This document shows positions 26,335-33,091 of a DNA stretch of 64,000 nt, piece by piece. The stretch spans positions 4,526,001 to 4,590,000 of the forward strand of contig NC_014217.1 of assembly GCF_000092925.1 (NCBI RefSeq). The letters are read 5' to 3'. Numbering within the stretch: position 1 is the first letter of the stretch; every line of letters begins with the position of its first letter. The position numbers and the translations under genes are program-made. The stretch is from Ancylobacter novellus DSM 506. GTDB taxonomy: Bacteria > Pseudomonadota > Alphaproteobacteria > Rhizobiales > Xanthobacteraceae. Under the pieces are notes generated by a model, which was not told the origin of the DNA, ran no database searches, and saw only the letters and a list, made by a program, of their open reading frames with translations.

Positions 26335-29232
26335 ATGAGCATTCCTGTCGTTTCGCCACGAAAGGCGGGGCGTGGCGCTGCCCCGCGCGCGACTTCATTG
26401 CTGCGGTCCACCGCGCTGTGCGGCGTTGCCGGGCTGGCGCTGCTCGCGCTTCCCGTCGGCGCGCGGGCGCAGGAGAGCGCGACCATCCCGCTGCATACCG
26501 GCTCGGACACGCATCATTTCAGCAACCAAATCTATGTCGCCGTCGGCGGCGGCGAGGCGAGCCGTGTGCTGATGGATACGGGCTCGACCGGGCTGTACCT
26601 GCATCGCGACCTCATCGGTCCCGACAGCACGATCATCATGTCCGGCGGCGAGCCAATCAGCTTCAAATACGGCTATTCCAGCGGCAACGAGCTGAAGGGC
26701 TATTACGTCTCCGCCCCGGTCGCGTTTCCCGAGGCCAGCACCGCGCTGTCGACCGGGGCAATCACCGTCGGCGCGGTCACGCAGATCGACTGCAAGGACG
26801 ACAGCGACTGCCCCGGCTGGCCGGATGGTCAGCACGGCGTGATGGGCGTCGCGTATTCCGCCGAGCCGGCGGCGGTGTTCAACCCCTTCGCCCAGCTGGC
26901 CGGCAATTACGGCAACGGCTTCATCGTCGTCTCCAACGATCTCGGCGATCCCGGCGTGACGCCGCATGTCGTCGTCGGCCTGACGCCTGAGAACACCGCC
27001 GGCTTCGTCTGGTCGCAGTTCCAGCCAGATACCGGCGGTACCCAGCCGGCCGGGCTGAACGCGTGGAACACCAAGACCATCAACACCTGCTTCTCGGTGA
27101 ACAACGGCTCGCCCGGCTGCTTCATCACCGTGTTCGACACGGGCGCCGCGCTCGGCGCGTTCGAGACCGGCACGTCCGGCGAGCAGCGCGGGGAGGTCGC
27201 GCCGGGCTCCACCGTCACCACCACGATCCCGGGCGTGATCTCCTTCACCAATGTGGCCGGCACCAAGCTGAACGAAAACGTCTATGTCTATGATCCCGCC
27301 CATGGAGGCACGCCGGGCTATAATTCCGGGGCCGGCGTGTTCCGCTATTATGTCGTCGCCTATGACGCGGTGAACGGGCGCATCGGATTCGCGCCGCTGC
27401 AGAACGTGCTGCTCGGCACGATCTATGCCGACAGCGACGCCGATCTCGGCGTGCCGGGCGGCGGCGTACTGCTGGCCGGCCAGCTCGTCACCTTGCACGG
27501 CTTCTCGACCGACCGCAGCATCGCCTTCGGTACCAATGCCGGACTGTCGGTGTTCGGTAGCGCCAGCTTCGGCGGCACGCTGTCGGGCGGCGTCAACATG
27601 GATGTCGCCATCGCGCCGGGCGGTGTGCTCGCGCTCTCGGGCACCAATCTCTATTCCGGCATCATGACCGTGTCCGGGGGCGCCCTCGTGGTGAATGGCC
27701 AGCTGCCGGCAACGCTGCTGTTGGACGGAACAAGGCTGTCCGGCTCGGGCACCATCGGCGCCGTGGCGGCCGCGAGCGGCAGCATCGTCGCGCCGGGCAA
27801 TTCAATCGGTACGCTCAGCGTGCTGGGCAATGCGATCTTCGCGCCGGGTGCGACCTATGCCGCCGAAATCGGTGCTTCCGGCAGCAGCGACCTCCTCGCC
27901 GTCGGCGGCACCGCCTCCCTCGCCGGCACGCTCGCAATCGTGCCCTATGGGCCGGGCACGCCGGTGCTGGGCAGCCGCTACACGCTGCTGAGCGCGGCGG
28001 GCGGCCTCAACGGCCAATTCCAGTCGGTGCAGGCGGCCGATTTCGGCGCGGCCGGCACCGCCTTCCCCTTCCTCGAACCGCTGGTGAGCTATTCCGCCAC
28101 CACGGCGGAACTCACCATGGGCCGCAGCGCGGTGAGCTTCACCAACGCCGCGCGCACCTCCAACCAGTTCGCCATGGCGCGCGCCGCCGACAGCGCCAGC
28201 GCGGCGAGCAATGCGGTGGTCGCCCTCTCCGGGCTGAACACGATCACGGCGACGCCGGCGCTGCAGGCGCTATCGGGTGAGATCTACGCGTCTACACAGA
28301 GCGTGATCCAGCAGCAATCGGCCTATCTGCGCGACGCCGTCGGTGCGCGCCTGCGCCAGGCCGCCGGCGAGCCCGCCGCCGTCGGCCCGACCACCGCCAC
28401 TACTTCCGGGCTGCCGCTGTCCTTCTGGGTGCAGGGCTTCGGCGGCTGGGGAGACACTTCCTCGAACGGCAATGCCGCCTCGGTGTCGAACACCATCGGC
28501 GGCGCGGTATTCGGCCTGGACACGCCGATCGGCCAGGACTGGCGCGCCGGCCTTGTCGGCGGCTACAGTCGCTCCTCCTTCTCGCAGGCTAACGGCTCGG
28601 GCGACAGCGACAACTACGATGTCGGCCTCTATGCCGGCGGCAGCCTCGGCACCGCCCGCCTCGCCCTCGGCGCCGCCTATGGCTGGCACGATGTCGCGGT
28701 CAGCCGTAGCGTCGCCTTTTCCGGCTACGCCTCAGGCGCCGCAGGCGACTACGATGCCAACAGCTTCCAGGCCTTCGGCGAGCTCAGCTACGACCTCGTC
28801 CTCGACCGGCTGACCCTTACACCCTTCGGCGGCCTCGCTTATGTCGGTGTCGATGGCGCCGAACTCGCGGAGAGCGGCACCGGCGCGGCGCTCGATGTCG
28901 CCACCGCGGACATGGATGCGCTCTATTCCGCACTCGGCCTGCGCTTCAGCCTGCCCCTCGCCGTCAATGGCCACGACGTGTGGCTCGGCGGCACGCTGGG
29001 CTGGCAGCACGCCTTCGGCGACGTGACGCCGTCCACCACGGTCGCTTTCGCCACCGGCTCCAGGGCAGTCGCGCTCGGCGGCGTGCCCATCGCCGAGAAT
29101 GCCGCGCTGCTCGGGTTGGAACTGGCCTATGCGCCGTCCGACACCACGCGGCTGGCGCTGAAATATGCCGGCCAGCTCGCCAGCAGCGCCAACCAGAACG
29201 CCATCTTCGCCGAGCTGGTGGTGAAGTTCTGA
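26335..29232 (+). CDS. Autotransporter with pepsin-like (A1) aspartic protease passenger
   Basis: A 965-residue secreted protein. The extended signal peptide spans residues 1-46 (LCGVAGLALLALPVGARAQ). Residues 50-360 follow pepsin landmarks in order: first catalytic motif LMDTGSTGLYL (D81), a flap-like ISFKYGYSSGNELKGYYVS, GVMGVAYS (compare pepsin GILGLAYP), second motif VFDTGAALG (D268) and a closing YVVAYDAVNGRIGFAPL. The two aspartates are 187 residues apart (183 in pepsin). Cysteine pairs occur at CKDDSDC and CFSVNNGSPGC. Residues 380-610 are beta-helix/PATR-like repeats (SGSIVAPGNSIGTLSVLGN). Residues 695-965 are an autotransporter beta-barrel ending in a terminal Phe (ELVVKF). Likely role: cell-surface or released protease. 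Activity is inferred. Confidence 0.85.
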   Translation: MSIPVVSPRKAGRGAAPRATSLLRSTALCGVAGLALLALPVGARAQESATIPLHTGSDTHHFSNQIYVAVGGGEASRVLMDTGSTGLYLHRDLIGPDSTIIMSGGEPISFKYGYSSGNELKGYYVSAPVAFPEASTALSTGAITVGAVTQIDCKDDSDCPGWPDGQHGVMGVAYSAEPAAVFNPFAQLAGNYGNGFIVVSNDLGDPGVTPHVVVGLTPENTAGFVWSQFQPDTGGTQPAGLNAWNTKTINTCFSVNNGSPGCFITVFDTGAALGAFETGTSGEQRGEVAPGSTVTTTIPGVISFTNVAGTKLNENVYVYDPAHGGTPGYNSGAGVFRYYVVAYDAVNGRIGFAPLQNVLLGTIYADSDADLGVPGGGVLLAGQLVTLHGFSTDRSIAFGTNAGLSVFGSASFGGTLSGGVNMDVAIAPGGVLALSGTNLYSGIMTVSGGALVVNGQLPATLLLDGTRLSGSGTIGAVAAASGSIVAPGNSIGTLSVLGNAIFAPGATYAAEIGASGSSDLLAVGGTASLAGTLAIVPYGPGTPVLGSRYTLLSAAGGLNGQFQSVQAADFGAAGTAFPFLEPLVSYSATTAELTMGRSAVSFTNAARTSNQFAMARAADSASAASNAVVALSGLNTITATPALQALSGEIYASTQSVIQQQSAYLRDAVGARLRQAAGEPAAVGPTTATTSGLPLSFWVQGFGGWGDTSSNGNAASVSNTIGGAVFGLDTPIGQDWRAGLVGGYSRSSFSQANGSGDSDNYDVGLYAGGSLGTARLALGAAYGWHDVAVSRSVAFSGYASGAAGDYDANSFQAFGELSYDLVLDRLTLTPFGGLAYVGVDGAELAESGTGAALDVATADMDALYSALGLRFSLPLAVNGHDVWLGGTLGWQHAFGDVTPSTTVAFATGSRAVALGGVPIAENAALLGLELAYAPSDTTRLALKYAGQLASSANQNAIFAELVVKF

Positions 29233-29743
29233 CGCCGTTTCAGCAGTAGATCGGGCAGCGGGCGCTGCACCAGATCGGCATCGCGCGCTAAACGGCGCGG
29301 CGGGAAATTCCGTACTGGAAAATTCGGCCGAGAGAGAAAGCGCGATTTCCGCGCCCTGAGAGCCCAAATTCCGTACCGCAGAGAGAAATGCATCGCCCGG
29401 AAACCCGCAGACACGCGGGGTTTGCGGGCTCAAGCCAAGGCGCGACGGTTTTCGGCAGACTGAATGGCGGAGTGCGTAGTCGTCTGCGAACCCGTCTCCA
29501 CTCGCCCCTGCTGTGAGGGTGATTAGCAAGGGGCGGCAGAGGCAATTCTTCGAGCGCGGCTGCCACAAAGAGCCGTTGACGGCCATTTACCGAATCGGTG
29601 AGTATTCGCGCGTCACCTTAGCAGCAGCGCACTCGTGGGCATTTGCCGAGGGATGGCTTCGTTCAATCGCGCCGTAGGCGGATTGTTCAGCGTCGGGAAT
29701 GACCCCGGCGCGAAGAAGTCGTCCTCGCCCAGAGGCCGCAACC
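29233..29743. other. Spacer at the left edge of the accessory segment
   Basis: About 510 bases with no supportable gene on either strand. An imperfect hairpin (CGCCCCTGCT with AGCAAGGGGCG, about 29,508-29,545) and short direct repeats are present. No tRNA could be folded by eye. Confidence 0.4.
29305..29376. repeat. 11-bp direct repeat
   Basis: AAATTCCGTAC occurs at 29305-29315 and 29366-29376, each followed within about 20 bases by GAGAGAAA. It lies in the spacer between the autotransporter and the methylase cassette. Function unknown. Confidence 0.45.
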
Positions 29744-31186
29744 ATGAGCTGCAATCCCCCTGTTCAGCCCGCTGTCGCTTCGATCGTCTCCAATGCTCCA
29801 ATCGTGCCGGAGGAATATCGGAACCTAGAACTTCTAATTAGATGTATTCCAATTGAGCACATCAAGTCCTACGAACACAATCCTCGTACGCATTCGAAGC
29901 ACCAGATTGATCTCATTTTTGATTCAATCCGGACATTTGGATTCGTCTCTCCGGTTACAATCGCCAATGATGGGACGCTAATCGCGGGCCACGCGCGTGT
30001 AATCGCGGCAAAGTCGCTCGGCTACACCTCTATTCCCGCGATCTGTCTCAGTCATCTAACCCAAGCCGAGCAACGCGCGCTTCGCATTGCGGACAACAAA
30101 ATTGCAGAGCGTGCCGGCTGGAACGATAAGTTCCTTGCCGAAGAGTTCGCCTTTCTAACCACCGATCTAAGCGTCGATTTTGATGTCGCGGTTACAGGCT
30201 TCGAAAACCCTGAAATCGATGGGCTTATTGCTGGTCTCGACGATGATGAAGCTTCCGCAGACGAGCGCGATGTTGTTCCCGAAGTCTCGTGGGGGAGCCC
30301 GGTCTCACAATTCGGCGACCGCTTCGATCTCGATGAACACAGCATTATTTGTGGTGACTCGACTGACTCTGGAACGTTCGGCGAGCTTATGGGCGACGAG
30401 CGCGCCACCGTGGTCAGCAGTGATGGGCCCTATAATGTCGCGATCAATGGGCATGTAAGCTCTACAGGTCGGCATCGAGAGTTCGTCGCTGGTGTCGGCG
30501 AGATGGACGCTGACGCCTTTACGGCTTTCAATGCAAGTTATCTCAACAACTGTCTAGCTTATAGTGTACCCGGTGTTCTCATCTATGCTTTCATGGATTG
30601 GAGGCATATGGAGGAAGTGCTTAGCGCGGGCAGGCTGGCGAAGCTGGATCTACAAAATCTCTGCGTGTGGAACAAAGGCTCGGGAGGGATGGGGTCTTTC
30701 TACCGCAGCCAGCATGAACTCGTTTTCGTGTTCAAAGAGCCCTCGGCCAGCCACGTCAATAATGTGAAGCTCGGCAAGTTTGGGCGCAACCGTACGAACG
30801 TCTGGAACTATCCCGGAGCCAGTAGTCTGCGCAAAGAACTTGAGCTTCATCCGACGCCTAAGCCGGTTGCGCTCGTCGCCGACATCATCCGTGACGCCTC
30901 CAATCGCGGCGATGTCGTCCTCGATCCATTCTCGGGCTCCGGCACCACGATCATCGCTGCTGCGAGCACCGGCCGTCGGGCCCGGGTGATTGAGCTCGAC
31001 CCACACTACGTCGACGTCGCTGTCCGGCGGTGGGAGGAGTGGTCTGGAGGGGTAGCCCGCCACTCGGCAACGGGACTGACCTTTGCCGAGCTGGCCCAGC
31101 GTAGGCGTCTATCCAAGGAGCGTGCGGCCCCAAAGGCCACCCGCATTCGCGTTCGTCGCAGCACCACACTCATCGGTGAGGAGTGA
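29744..31186 (+). CDS. ParB-domain DNA methyltransferase (N4/N6 type), variant motif IV
   Basis: A 480-residue fusion. Residues about 30-115 form a ParB/Srx nuclease-like domain (IRCIPIEHIKSYEHNPRTHSKHQI, GTLIAGHARVIAAKSLG). The methylase domain has motif IV before motif I (beta order): SSDGPYNVAINGH at about 225-237 and LDPFSGSGTTIIAA with the AdoMet site. Motif IV is DGPY where the family has DPPY. The start ATG 29744 has AGAGG upstream; an in-frame ATG at 29699 lacks spacing. The gene is visibly less GC-rich than its flanks. It is followed by DUF5681 and terminase genes, as in prophage-derived cassettes. Confidence 0.87.
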   Translation: MSCNPPVQPAVASIVSNAPIVPEEYRNLELLIRCIPIEHIKSYEHNPRTHSKHQIDLIFDSIRTFGFVSPVTIANDGTLIAGHARVIAAKSLGYTSIPAICLSHLTQAEQRALRIADNKIAERAGWNDKFLAEEFAFLTTDLSVDFDVAVTGFENPEIDGLIAGLDDDEASADERDVVPEVSWGSPVSQFGDRFDLDEHSIICGDSTDSGTFGELMGDERATVVSSDGPYNVAINGHVSSTGRHREFVAGVGEMDADAFTAFNASYLNNCLAYSVPGVLIYAFMDWRHMEEVLSAGRLAKLDLQNLCVWNKGSGGMGSFYRSQHELVFVFKEPSASHVNNVKLGKFGRNRTNVWNYPGASSLRKELELHPTPKPVALVADIIRDASNRGDVVLDPFSGSGTTIIAAASTGRRARVIELDPHYVDVAVRRWEEWSGGVARHSATGLTFAELAQRRRLSKERAAPKATRIRVRRSTTLIGEE

Positions 31187-31191
31187 TGGGC

Positions 31192-31665
31192 ATGGCGACT
31201 AACAACAAGCCCCAGCAAAAGATCGGTGAGCCGCAGCATGAGAGCGGCAAGGGCAGCTATCGCTGCCCTCCCGTTGAGACCCGCTTTAAGCCTGGTCAAA
31301 GTGGAAACCCCGGAGGCCGAAGGAAGGGTAGTCGCAACGTCAGTAGTGTTCTCGATGATGTGCTTGGCCAAGAAGTCACGATCCAGGAGGGCGGCAAGCG
31401 CAAGAAGGTCACCGTACTCAAGGCCGTTCTTCTCTGTCTGGCTCGGGAAGGCCTGAAGGGGAATATCCGTGCCATCGACAGCCTCCTCGATCGTGCCCAG
31501 CGGAGCGAGAGCAAATCGGAAGCGACGGGCACAGATGATCTGCCGGCGGAGGATAACGGCATCATCGAGAGGGCGCTCGACCGTCAAACGCGTAAGTCAG
31601 CGACGACGCAGCGTGGCCCAAAGAACGTCAAGCGCGACAACGGGGGAGGGGACGATGAGAGATGA
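31192..31665 (+). CDS. DUF5681 domain-containing protein
   Basis: A 157-residue basic protein with the DUF5681 hallmark RFKPGQSGNPGGRRKGSRN at residues about 37-55, then VTVLKAVLLCLAREGLKGNIRAIDSLLDR and a charged disordered tail. The role is unknown; the family recurs directly before terminase genes, so it may act like a small-terminase or DNA-packaging accessory. GTGAGGAG eight bases before ATG 31192 supports this start; ATG 31186, overlapping the methylase stop, is the alternative. Its end overlaps the terminase start by 11 bases. Confidence 0.75.
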   Translation: MATNNKPQQKIGEPQHESGKGSYRCPPVETRFKPGQSGNPGGRRKGSRNVSSVLDDVLGQEVTIQEGGKRKKVTVLKAVLLCLAREGLKGNIRAIDSLLDRAQRSESKSEATGTDDLPAEDNGIIERALDRQTRKSATTQRGPKNVKRDNGGGDDER

Positions 31666-33091
31666 AGCCCGTCTGCTCCGCGCTTTTCTTCGCCGAGATC
31701 TTTGTGCCTTTATGGAGAAGGTCTTCGCCGAGCTCGAACCTGGCACGGTCTATCAGCCGAACTGGCACCTTGAGCATCTCGCCTACATGCTGTCGCGGGT
31801 GGCGAGCGGCGAGATCCGACGGTTGATCATCAACGTGCCACCAAGGTCCGGGAAGTCGCTCCTCGCGAGCGTCGCCTTCCCCATGTGGTGGCTCGGTCAT
31901 GATCCAACGAGGCGCATCATCTGCGTCTCACATACAGAGAGCCTGGCGAGGAAGTTCAGCCAGGATCGCCGCCTCGTCGCCGAGTGCGCCTGGTTCTGGC
32001 GGGCGTTTCCGCGCTTCCGGCTTGATGGCCGGGGGCAGCGGAGCCTGGAACTTATCACCGATCTCCGAGGGTCGATCTTCGCGGCGGGCGTCGGCGGCGC
32101 CATCCTGGGTCGCGGCGCGGATCTCATGATCGCGGACGATCCACTCAAGGGCATGGACGCGCTGTCGAGCGCCAAACGCAACAGCCTGAACGACTTCTTC
32201 GACAACACGCTTGTCACGCGCCTGAACGATAAGAAGACGGGCGCGATCATCATCATCATGCAACGCCTGCACGAGGACGACCTGGTCGGCCATGTCCTAC
32301 GCAAGGAAGGGTGGGAGGTCGTCTCCCTCCCCGCCATCGCCACCGAAGCCGGCTCCTTCGCGTTAGGCTCTGACCCCAGGGACAAATATGTTCGCCGGAT
32401 TGGGGAGGTACTGGACGCCAACCGAGAACCTCTCGAGGTGCTCGAGGCATTGCGCCGGACCCAGGGAAGTCTGATCTTCTCGGCGCAGTACCAACAAAAC
32501 CCCATCCCCGCCGAGGGCAACCTCGTCCGCCGCGAGTGGCTGCGTCGCTATGACCGGCCACCTTCCTTCGACCGCCTGGTGGTCTCCTGGGACACCGCCT
32601 CCACCTTGGGAGAGGCCAGTGACTGGTCGGTAGGCACCGTATGGGGTGCACGCGGCGTCGACTTCTACCTGATCGATGTTGTGCGAGGGCGGTTTGAAAG
32701 CCCGGAGCTCCGGCGCCAGATACTCGCTCTCCACCGGCGCTACGAGGCCGACGCCACGTTAATCGAGGACACCGAGCTTGGCCGAGCCATGGAGCAAGAT
32801 CTGCGCAGCACAGGCGAGTTGCGCGCCCTTAAAATGAGGCCCAGGTTCGATAAGGAGGCGCGTTTTCTCGCCCAGTCGGCACGGTTCGAAGCCGGGCAAG
32901 TGCACGTTCCTGAGGAAGCGCCATGGCTCGCTGATTACATCAGCGAACTGCTCGCCTTTCCGAACGGGCGTCACGACGATCAGGTCGACAGCACCTCGCA
33001 GGCGCTGCACTACCTCACTCTGAGCACCGCAAGGGAGCGAGAGCTGATCCGTCGGGAAATTCCTCGTCGGAGCATCACACGGCGAAGCTGA
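31655..33091 (+). CDS. Terminase large subunit (phage DNA packaging ATPase/nuclease)
   Basis: A 478-residue protein. The ATPase part has Walker A INVPPRSGKSLLA and Walker B LMIADDPLKG. The RNase-H-like nuclease part shows acidic motifs VVSWDTASTL, ATLIEDTELG and HDDQVDSTSQAL. Start ATG 31655 follows GGGAGGGG. No portal, protease, capsid, integrase or lysis gene is found nearby, so it is not part of an intact prophage. The arrangement with DUF5681 and the ParB-methylase is a compact three-gene cassette. Confidence 0.88.
   Translation: MRDEARLLRAFLRRDLCAFMEKVFAELEPGTVYQPNWHLEHLAYMLSRVASGEIRRLIINVPPRSGKSLLASVAFPMWWLGHDPTRRIICVSHTESLARKFSQDRRLVAECAWFWRAFPRFRLDGRGQRSLELITDLRGSIFAAGVGGAILGRGADLMIADDPLKGMDALSSAKRNSLNDFFDNTLVTRLNDKKTGAIIIIMQRLHEDDLVGHVLRKEGWEVVSLPAIATEAGSFALGSDPRDKYVRRIGEVLDANREPLEVLEALRRTQGSLIFSAQYQQNPIPAEGNLVRREWLRRYDRPPSFDRLVVSWDTASTLGEASDWSVGTVWGARGVDFYLIDVVRGRFESPELRRQILALHRRYEADATLIEDTELGRAMEQDLRSTGELRALKMRPRFDKEARFLAQSARFEAGQVHVPEEAPWLADYISELLAFPNGRHDDQVDSTSQALHYLTLSTARERELIRREIPRRSITRRS

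Follow-up and report, generated by a model that had tools for sequence, protein, structure and literature searches.

The genome of Ancylobacter novellus DSM 506 contains, in the 64,000-nucleotide stretch analyzed here (NC_014217.1, positions 4,526,001 to 4,590,000; the window), a gene whose 965-residue product joins an N-terminal pepsin-like domain to a C-terminal autotransporter barrel. We conclude that this product is a classical autotransporter protease with a pepsin-like (PF20729) aspartic protease as its catalytic unit, with a probability of about 0.8. A preliminary description, made from the sequence, had reported an ordered set of pepsin landmarks in a protease displayed by an autotransporter. 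All the landmarks were present, with YGYSSG at residues 112-117 and GRIGFAPL at 348-355, and the distance of 187 positions between D81 and D268 was confirmed. The landmarks go beyond chance because 17 or more homologues have a like architecture and because the domain yielded a confident pepsin-fold model. Thus, the observation was confirmed and its interpretation is supported.

The predicted model of the domain adopted a pepsin fold with two A1 lobes, as had been proposed, with a predicted local distance difference test (pLDDT) score of 93.2, and its structure matches were 4EHC, pepsin, and renin. A single-sequence prediction of the full-length protein was dropped (pLDDT, 32.1). Structural alignment gave 16-17% identity to pepsin over 267-271 residues, 16-18% to human renin, and 20% to both mouse renin and 4EHC, the mycobacterial PE_PGRS16 domain, which is the nearest solved relative. 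Since the domain as a whole matches pepsin and 4EHC, D81 and D268 would be expected to face each other in the model. Profile alignments paired Y114 with the flap tyrosine of cod pepsin and renin, so Y114 probably corresponds to Tyr75 of pepsin. The hydrophobic-hydrophobic-Gly sequence of lobe 1 is present as V169-M170-G171. A retropepsin (A2) assignment was rejected, as a single chain bears both motifs and the match to bilobed enzymes spans the entire domain.

PF20729 (PE-PGRS C-terminal aspartyl peptidase-like) was absent from the Pfam scan of the full-length protein and appeared only when residues 45-367 were scanned alone (39.2 bits; cut-off, 33), the match covering model positions 2-139 of 265, i.e., the first half. 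The pepsin model PF00026, which the preliminary description had suggested as a check, gave no match at E values up to 10 with either the full-length protein or the isolated domain; we therefore assign the protein to PF20729, call it pepsin-like, and do not count it among PF00026 members. The NCBIfam model for PecA (NF038019) scored 22.5 bits, against a cut-off of 150. The silence of PF00026 is what would be expected if the motifs had arisen by chance in a beta-rich passenger unrelated to pepsin. The profile and conservation evidence contradicts that explanation, and the model and its structure matches speak so strongly against it that we regard it as negligible.

Homologues were collected by searches of large protein databases in which ∼8000 candidates sharing most words were scored, so that the counts are lower bounds. 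At least 17 homologues had the whole architecture, with 42-94% identity over the domain and PF03797 in all of them. Seeding the search with the most divergent homologue returned at least 25 rows (itself included), nine of them new and again all with PF03797. The survey of the fusion that had been called for thus showed it to recur, in three sequence classes, with the window gene in class I. Nonconserved aspartates had been named beforehand as grounds for rejecting the claim. D81 and D268 were invariant in the 18 proteins first aligned, and both catalytic motifs were also found in the nine further fused homologues, giving 27 of 27 with the window protein. Asp occupied both sites in all 29 fused rows of the tree set, which overlaps these 27 and adds genomic relatives. 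In a 96-row alignment consisting mostly of stand-alone relatives (A4), every row had the first Asp, and 93 had the second; of the three others, P0039 has Asn there, and the short sequences P0062 and P0067 have gaps. The Y114 column held Y in 90 rows, F in 4, V in 1, and a gap in 1. Relatives with the same fusion and both catalytic residues point to a surface-displayed kind of bacterial protease.

Several observations weigh against this assignment. In lobe 2, N330-S331-G332 aligned where A1 enzymes have hydrophobic-hydrophobic-Gly, and the second lobe compared with 4EHC by sequence only was not significant by itself. Among the relatives, the stand-alone P0039 has Asn replacing the second Asp; of the 15 stand-alone class I proteins in the tree set, one has GTGS at the second motif; and a fused protein (L086) had DTGE as its second motif and lacked the YGYSSG flap. 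The fused gene of Ancylobacter radicis (L017:7851-10895) is interrupted by an in-frame TAG inside the protease domain. No linked gene hinting at a substrate was found in the six loci compared. According to excerpts of PMC6819658, no proteolytic activity was seen with PE_PGRS16, the closest solved relative, and the activity of PecA was far lower in E. coli or in vitro.

The lack of activity reported for PE_PGRS16, which has the same fold and motifs, together with the flap loss in L086 and the loss of the second Asp in P0039, would suit a pepsin-fold pseudoprotease serving binding or adhesion at the cell surface. We consider this unlikely, since all 29 fused rows retain both aspartates, though paralogous fused domains are just 28.7-38.7% identical, and PecA, which is related in fold, is active (PMC6819658, in part). 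Our preferred reading, as in the preliminary description, is that the fused protein would be a catalytically active aspartic protease.

The barrel was unambiguous. PF03797 matched residues 697-944 (E = 1.3e-57), the TIGR01414 match ran to the last residue, 965 (E = 4.4e-39), and the chain ends in Phe (F965), so that the claimed fusion to a classical type V barrel with terminal Phe was borne out. Of the claimed beta-helix/PATR repeats, a single PATR match (17.9 bits) appeared, under the curated cut-off of 27, in a stalk that is homologous to those of 8e7f and EprS. Against the serine autotransporter EprS, stalk and barrel matched NF051851 over residues 429-958 (E = 9.3e-102), but at 341.7 bits versus an equivalog cut-off of 1700 and with the match beginning at residue 429, the protein is not an EprS equivalog. 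The stalk also matched the Extracellular serine protease of PDB entry 8e7f (query residues 427-598; E = 1.1e-18). From this homology, the secretion chassis is common to these proteins and the catalytic unit is different. At the N terminus, a putative signal peptide was read by eye; a hydropathy scan placed its 15-residue maximum (2.31) at residues 27-41, and A45 was invariant in 18 of 18 aligned proteins.

Table 1. Features of the pepsin-like autotransporter gene, in window coordinates
Feature	Position	Strand	Basis
Pepsin-like autotransporter, whole gene (965 aa)	26335..29232	+	Open reading frame; at least 17 homologues of like architecture
Signal-peptide-like start, residues 1-45	26335..26469	+	By eye (hydrophobic core ~22-41, ARA|QE); hydropathy; A45
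Two-lobed pepsin-like aspartic protease domain, residues 46-358	26470..27408	+	PF20729; model pLDDT 93.2; 4EHC, pepsin, and renin matches
First catalytic motif DTGSTG (D81)	26575..26592	+	D in 18/18 and 96/96 rows
Flap motif FKYGYSSGN, residues 110-118	26662..26688	+	Profile alignments to cod pepsin and mouse renin
C153 and C159, probable lobe 1 disulphide	26791..26811	+	Cys in 96/96 rows at both; pairing inferred
GVMGVAY (168-174), lobe 1 hydrophobic-hydrophobic-Gly	26836..26856	+	All seven residues invariant, 18/18
C252 and C262, probable lobe 2 disulphide	27088..27120	+	Cys in 92/96 and 88/96 rows; pairing inferred
Second catalytic motif DTGA (D268)	27136..27147	+	D in 18/18, 93/96 rows, and 29/29 fused rows
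Closing segment NSGAGVFRYYVVAYDAVNGRIGFAPL (330-355)	27322..27399	+	Aligned with C termini of mucoropepsin, cod pepsin, and renin
Stalk, residues 368-690	27436..28404	+	One weak PATR (430-453); homologous to autotransporter serine protease stalks
Autotransporter beta-barrel, residues 691-965, terminal Phe (F965)	28405..29229	+	PF03797, TIGR01414

PF11925 (DUF3443) was found in some class II members, namely, four of the nine new rows (P0018, P0095, P0097, and P0101), and one class II genomic copy passed PF00026 (20.8 versus 19.9 bits). The DUF3443 proteins P0018, P0067, and P0071 align with the pepsin-like domain, and from this likeness DUF3443 may be an aspartic peptidase family; P0067, a 259-aa database protein, is only the first part of the TAG-interrupted A. 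radicis gene. The divergent class III consists of frames in L087-L091 that measure 1077-1160 aa and of four more distant frames in L112-L114 (1111-1148 aa); all of them include a barrel. Alignment of its profile with that of classes I and II extended across 285 columns (E = 2e-19) and brought both DTG motifs into register. Compared with the PDB, the class III profile had as best match CD177 antigen (9igp; E = 8e-5), which is probably a chance match, and reached 4EHC at just 0.017. L086 is a further divergent fusion. At least 76 relatives, of 174-430 aa, are stand-alone proteins; where a source is named, most come from Xanthobacteraceae and other Hyphomicrobiales, with a few weak fungal matches, and P0077 bears the NCBI name pepsin/retropepsin-like aspartic protease family protein. 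The A. novellus genome itself holds such a protein of 357 aa (L062:1279-2349, C1 at ~662 kb), with a signal-like start and the motifs DSGST and DTGV; it scored 21 bits with PF20729, below the cut-off, and was class III-like by profile.

Genome surveys with the class I/II profile count stand-alone and weak class III-like matches as well, and their samples overlap; those of order, phylum, and class scored at most five candidates per genome and give lower bounds. Matches were found in 16 of 30 genomes of the genus, 23 of 149 of the family, at least 14 of 397 of the order, and at least 6 of 398 of the phylum. The fusion was present in five of the 30 genus genomes, i.e., the window's own, G120 (with the internal TAG), G1249, G1252, and G1241, and the barrels of the last three were confirmed on excised loci. 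The class III profile matched at least 9 of 385 genomes of the class, including weak cross-matches such as the window gene. In a collection of named genomes, 3 of 26 loci were fusions, in Xanthobacter agilis, a Rhodovastum metagenome-assembled genome, and A. radicis (with the in-frame TAG).

Trees of the protease domain (71 rows) and of the barrel (34 rows) were built with quick methods, without bootstrap. The domain tree united classes I and II in one superclade and set class III in another, with fused and stand-alone proteins in each; as the trees are unrooted, fusion gains are indistinguishable from losses, and several class III rows are long branches. In the barrel tree, the nine class III barrels require five label changes, of which the starred branches force at least two. 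Genome G231 has a tandem of three genes on one strand (L087:3942-11593), of which one codes for a stand-alone protease and the others for fusions of class III and class II, respectively. The two fused neighbours are 91.4% identical in their barrels (254/278), 47.5% in their stalks, and 28.7% in their protease domains (83/289). Two neighbouring class III copies in G889 gave 98.2%, 68.3%, and 38.7%, respectively, and two copies on separate contigs of G812 gave 68.1%, 52.9%, and 33.1%. For the neighbouring pairs of G231 and G889, the simplest reading of these identities would be barrel exchange or gene conversion while the protease diverges; slower barrel evolution after duplication may account for part of the barrel likeness and could do so in G889. 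A broader proposal, for which we see even odds, is that Alphaproteobacteria hold modular type V-displayed, renin-like neutral aspartic proteases, that fusion of domains from the two superclades to stalks and barrels took place repeatedly, and that neighbouring copies exchange or homogenise barrels while their proteases diversify, giving one chassis with changing specificities.

Type V export followed by folding outside the cell is an established pathway. Applied to the window protein, it would have Sec export the precursor and the barrel insert into the outer membrane; the passenger would then thread outward unfolded and fold outside on its stalk, which by analogy suggests its display at the surface. 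The folded two-lobed domain would cut proteins there, with the D81/D268 dyad beneath the YGYSSG flap. The first strand of the model is at residue 49, and only residues 46-48 separate it from the signal cleavage site read by eye, which would leave no space for a prosegment like that of pepsin; extracellular folding probably stands in for zymogen control. Because Ala, as in renin, sits at the place of pepsin Thr218 (the Ala of DTGA, found in 72 of the 96 A4 rows), a near-neutral activity optimum is suggested; the effect of Ala versus Thr218 on the pH optimum is covered in excerpts of PMC2761423.

The likeliest use, by analogy with PecA, would be the cutting of surface or external proteins, possibly including the enzyme itself. 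PecA, a surface-associated enzyme, cleaves itself as well as other PE_PGRS proteins; with its first catalytic Asp changed, it stays uncleaved (PMC6819658, in part). Maturation of the cell's own surface proteins, namely, the enzyme itself and the other autotransporters of the genome, would parallel this action of PecA on itself and its sister proteins. Five other loci of the genome match barrels, with PF03797 in four of the five frames scanned and the fifth barrel in an overlapping frame. Within the window, however, the gene has no linked autotransporter, and both fused neighbours in the tandem set of L087 are themselves pepsin-like, so we hold such a role to be possible but rather doubtful. 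In one locus of the genome (L069:1196-4970), the passenger (1014 aa) and the barrel (293 aa) of an autotransporter are encoded in different, overlapping frames, which suggests either a frameshift in the gene or an error in sequencing. A nutritional or competitive protease that degrades foreign extracellular proteins is, in our tentative view, a serious candidate that falls somewhat short of even odds. Changing external substrates would fit both the patchy spread within the genus (any relative in 16 of 30 genomes, the fusion in 5) and the occurrence of divergent protease domains on like barrels, but no linked cluster for peptide uptake or catabolism was found, and the upstream ATP-binding cassette (ABC) genes have no assigned substrate.

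These upstream genes encode a solute-binding protein, an ABC permease, and an ABC ATPase. Downstream, ∼470 bp past the autotransporter, genes for a ParB/N6-N4 DNA methylase and a terminase begin (29699-33091), and the G+C content drops from 0.653 (28-30 kb) to 0.589 (30-32 kb); the border of a prophage, or of what is left of a phage, probably lies here. In G+C content the autotransporter matches the upstream side, and no tie to the phage-like genes was found. The 64,000 nucleotides held no detectable transfer RNA genes. When 16 window proteins were compared by tblastn with L009, L010, L017, L086, L087, and L092, only the ABC ATPase matched besides the gene itself; as these matches (26-42% identity) are of a ubiquitous type, no partner is claimed. 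Promoter- and terminator-like sites numbered 1 and 2, against 0.5 and 1.9 in shuffled sequences, which is not above chance, and none suits the gene.

To our knowledge, the autotransporter proteases that have been well characterised belong to the serine type. Type V secretion would gain an aspartic class from a recurring passenger whose pepsin-like dyad is conserved, and such a passenger would connect the mycobacterial surface protease PecA with Gram-negative relatives. It would also allow a direct pepstatin test, suggest a natural route to prosegment-free production of such enzymes, and provide a function lead for proteins currently named hypothetical, autotransporter, or DUF3443. Protein databases already show PF03797 and PF20729 within one protein. 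Titles and opening lines of abstracts, drawn from a literature that included few subscription papers or preprints, described no fusion of a pepsin-like protease to an autotransporter, nor did excerpts of PMC12237847, in which a plant aspartic peptidase cuts a rhizobial autotransporter, of PMC4618607, which concerns a subtilase, of PMC10414592, on a lipoprotein peptidase of Rickettsia, or of PMC13271334, on proteases of the gut.

Compared with known systems, the window protein has in common with pepsin and renin (A1) the two-lobed fold, two D-T-G motifs, the flap Tyr, and the closing G-x-I/V-G-F/L-A-P, but differs in leaving no apparent space for a prosegment and in having N-S-G replace the hydrophobic-hydrophobic-Gly of lobe 2. 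Pepsin has three disulphides, and the Cys residues of the window protein are at other positions. Like EprS and 8e7f, it combines an N-terminal protease with a C-terminal barrel on a homologous stalk, but the catalytic domain of those autotransporters is a serine peptidase whereas that of the window protein is pepsin-like. The bacterial pepsin homologues of Rawlings and Bateman (2009) are likewise bilobed; in the part of that work available (PMC2761423), they are without signal peptides and are taken as intracellular. Amuc_1434 of Akkermansia, compared by description only, is a secreted aspartic peptidase assigned to A1 in a review (PMC13271334), excerpts of which mention no barrel. In Rickettsia, the retropepsin-like aspartic peptidase APRc has been proposed (PMC4140852, in part), and the lipoprotein peptidase RapL reported (PMC10414592, in part), to process autotransporters, each as a separate protein and not as a passenger. 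PE_PGRS16 (4EHC) and PecA of mycobacteria are PF20729 relatives, and PecA, which is exported by the type VII pathway (PMC6819658, in part), is unlike the window protein in having no fusion to an outer-membrane barrel. With regard to the suggestion that a type V-secreted A1 protease would be a distinct effector class, PecA is already known as a surface-associated bacterial aspartic protease related to this domain, so that what is new is secretion by type V rather than exposure on the surface in itself.
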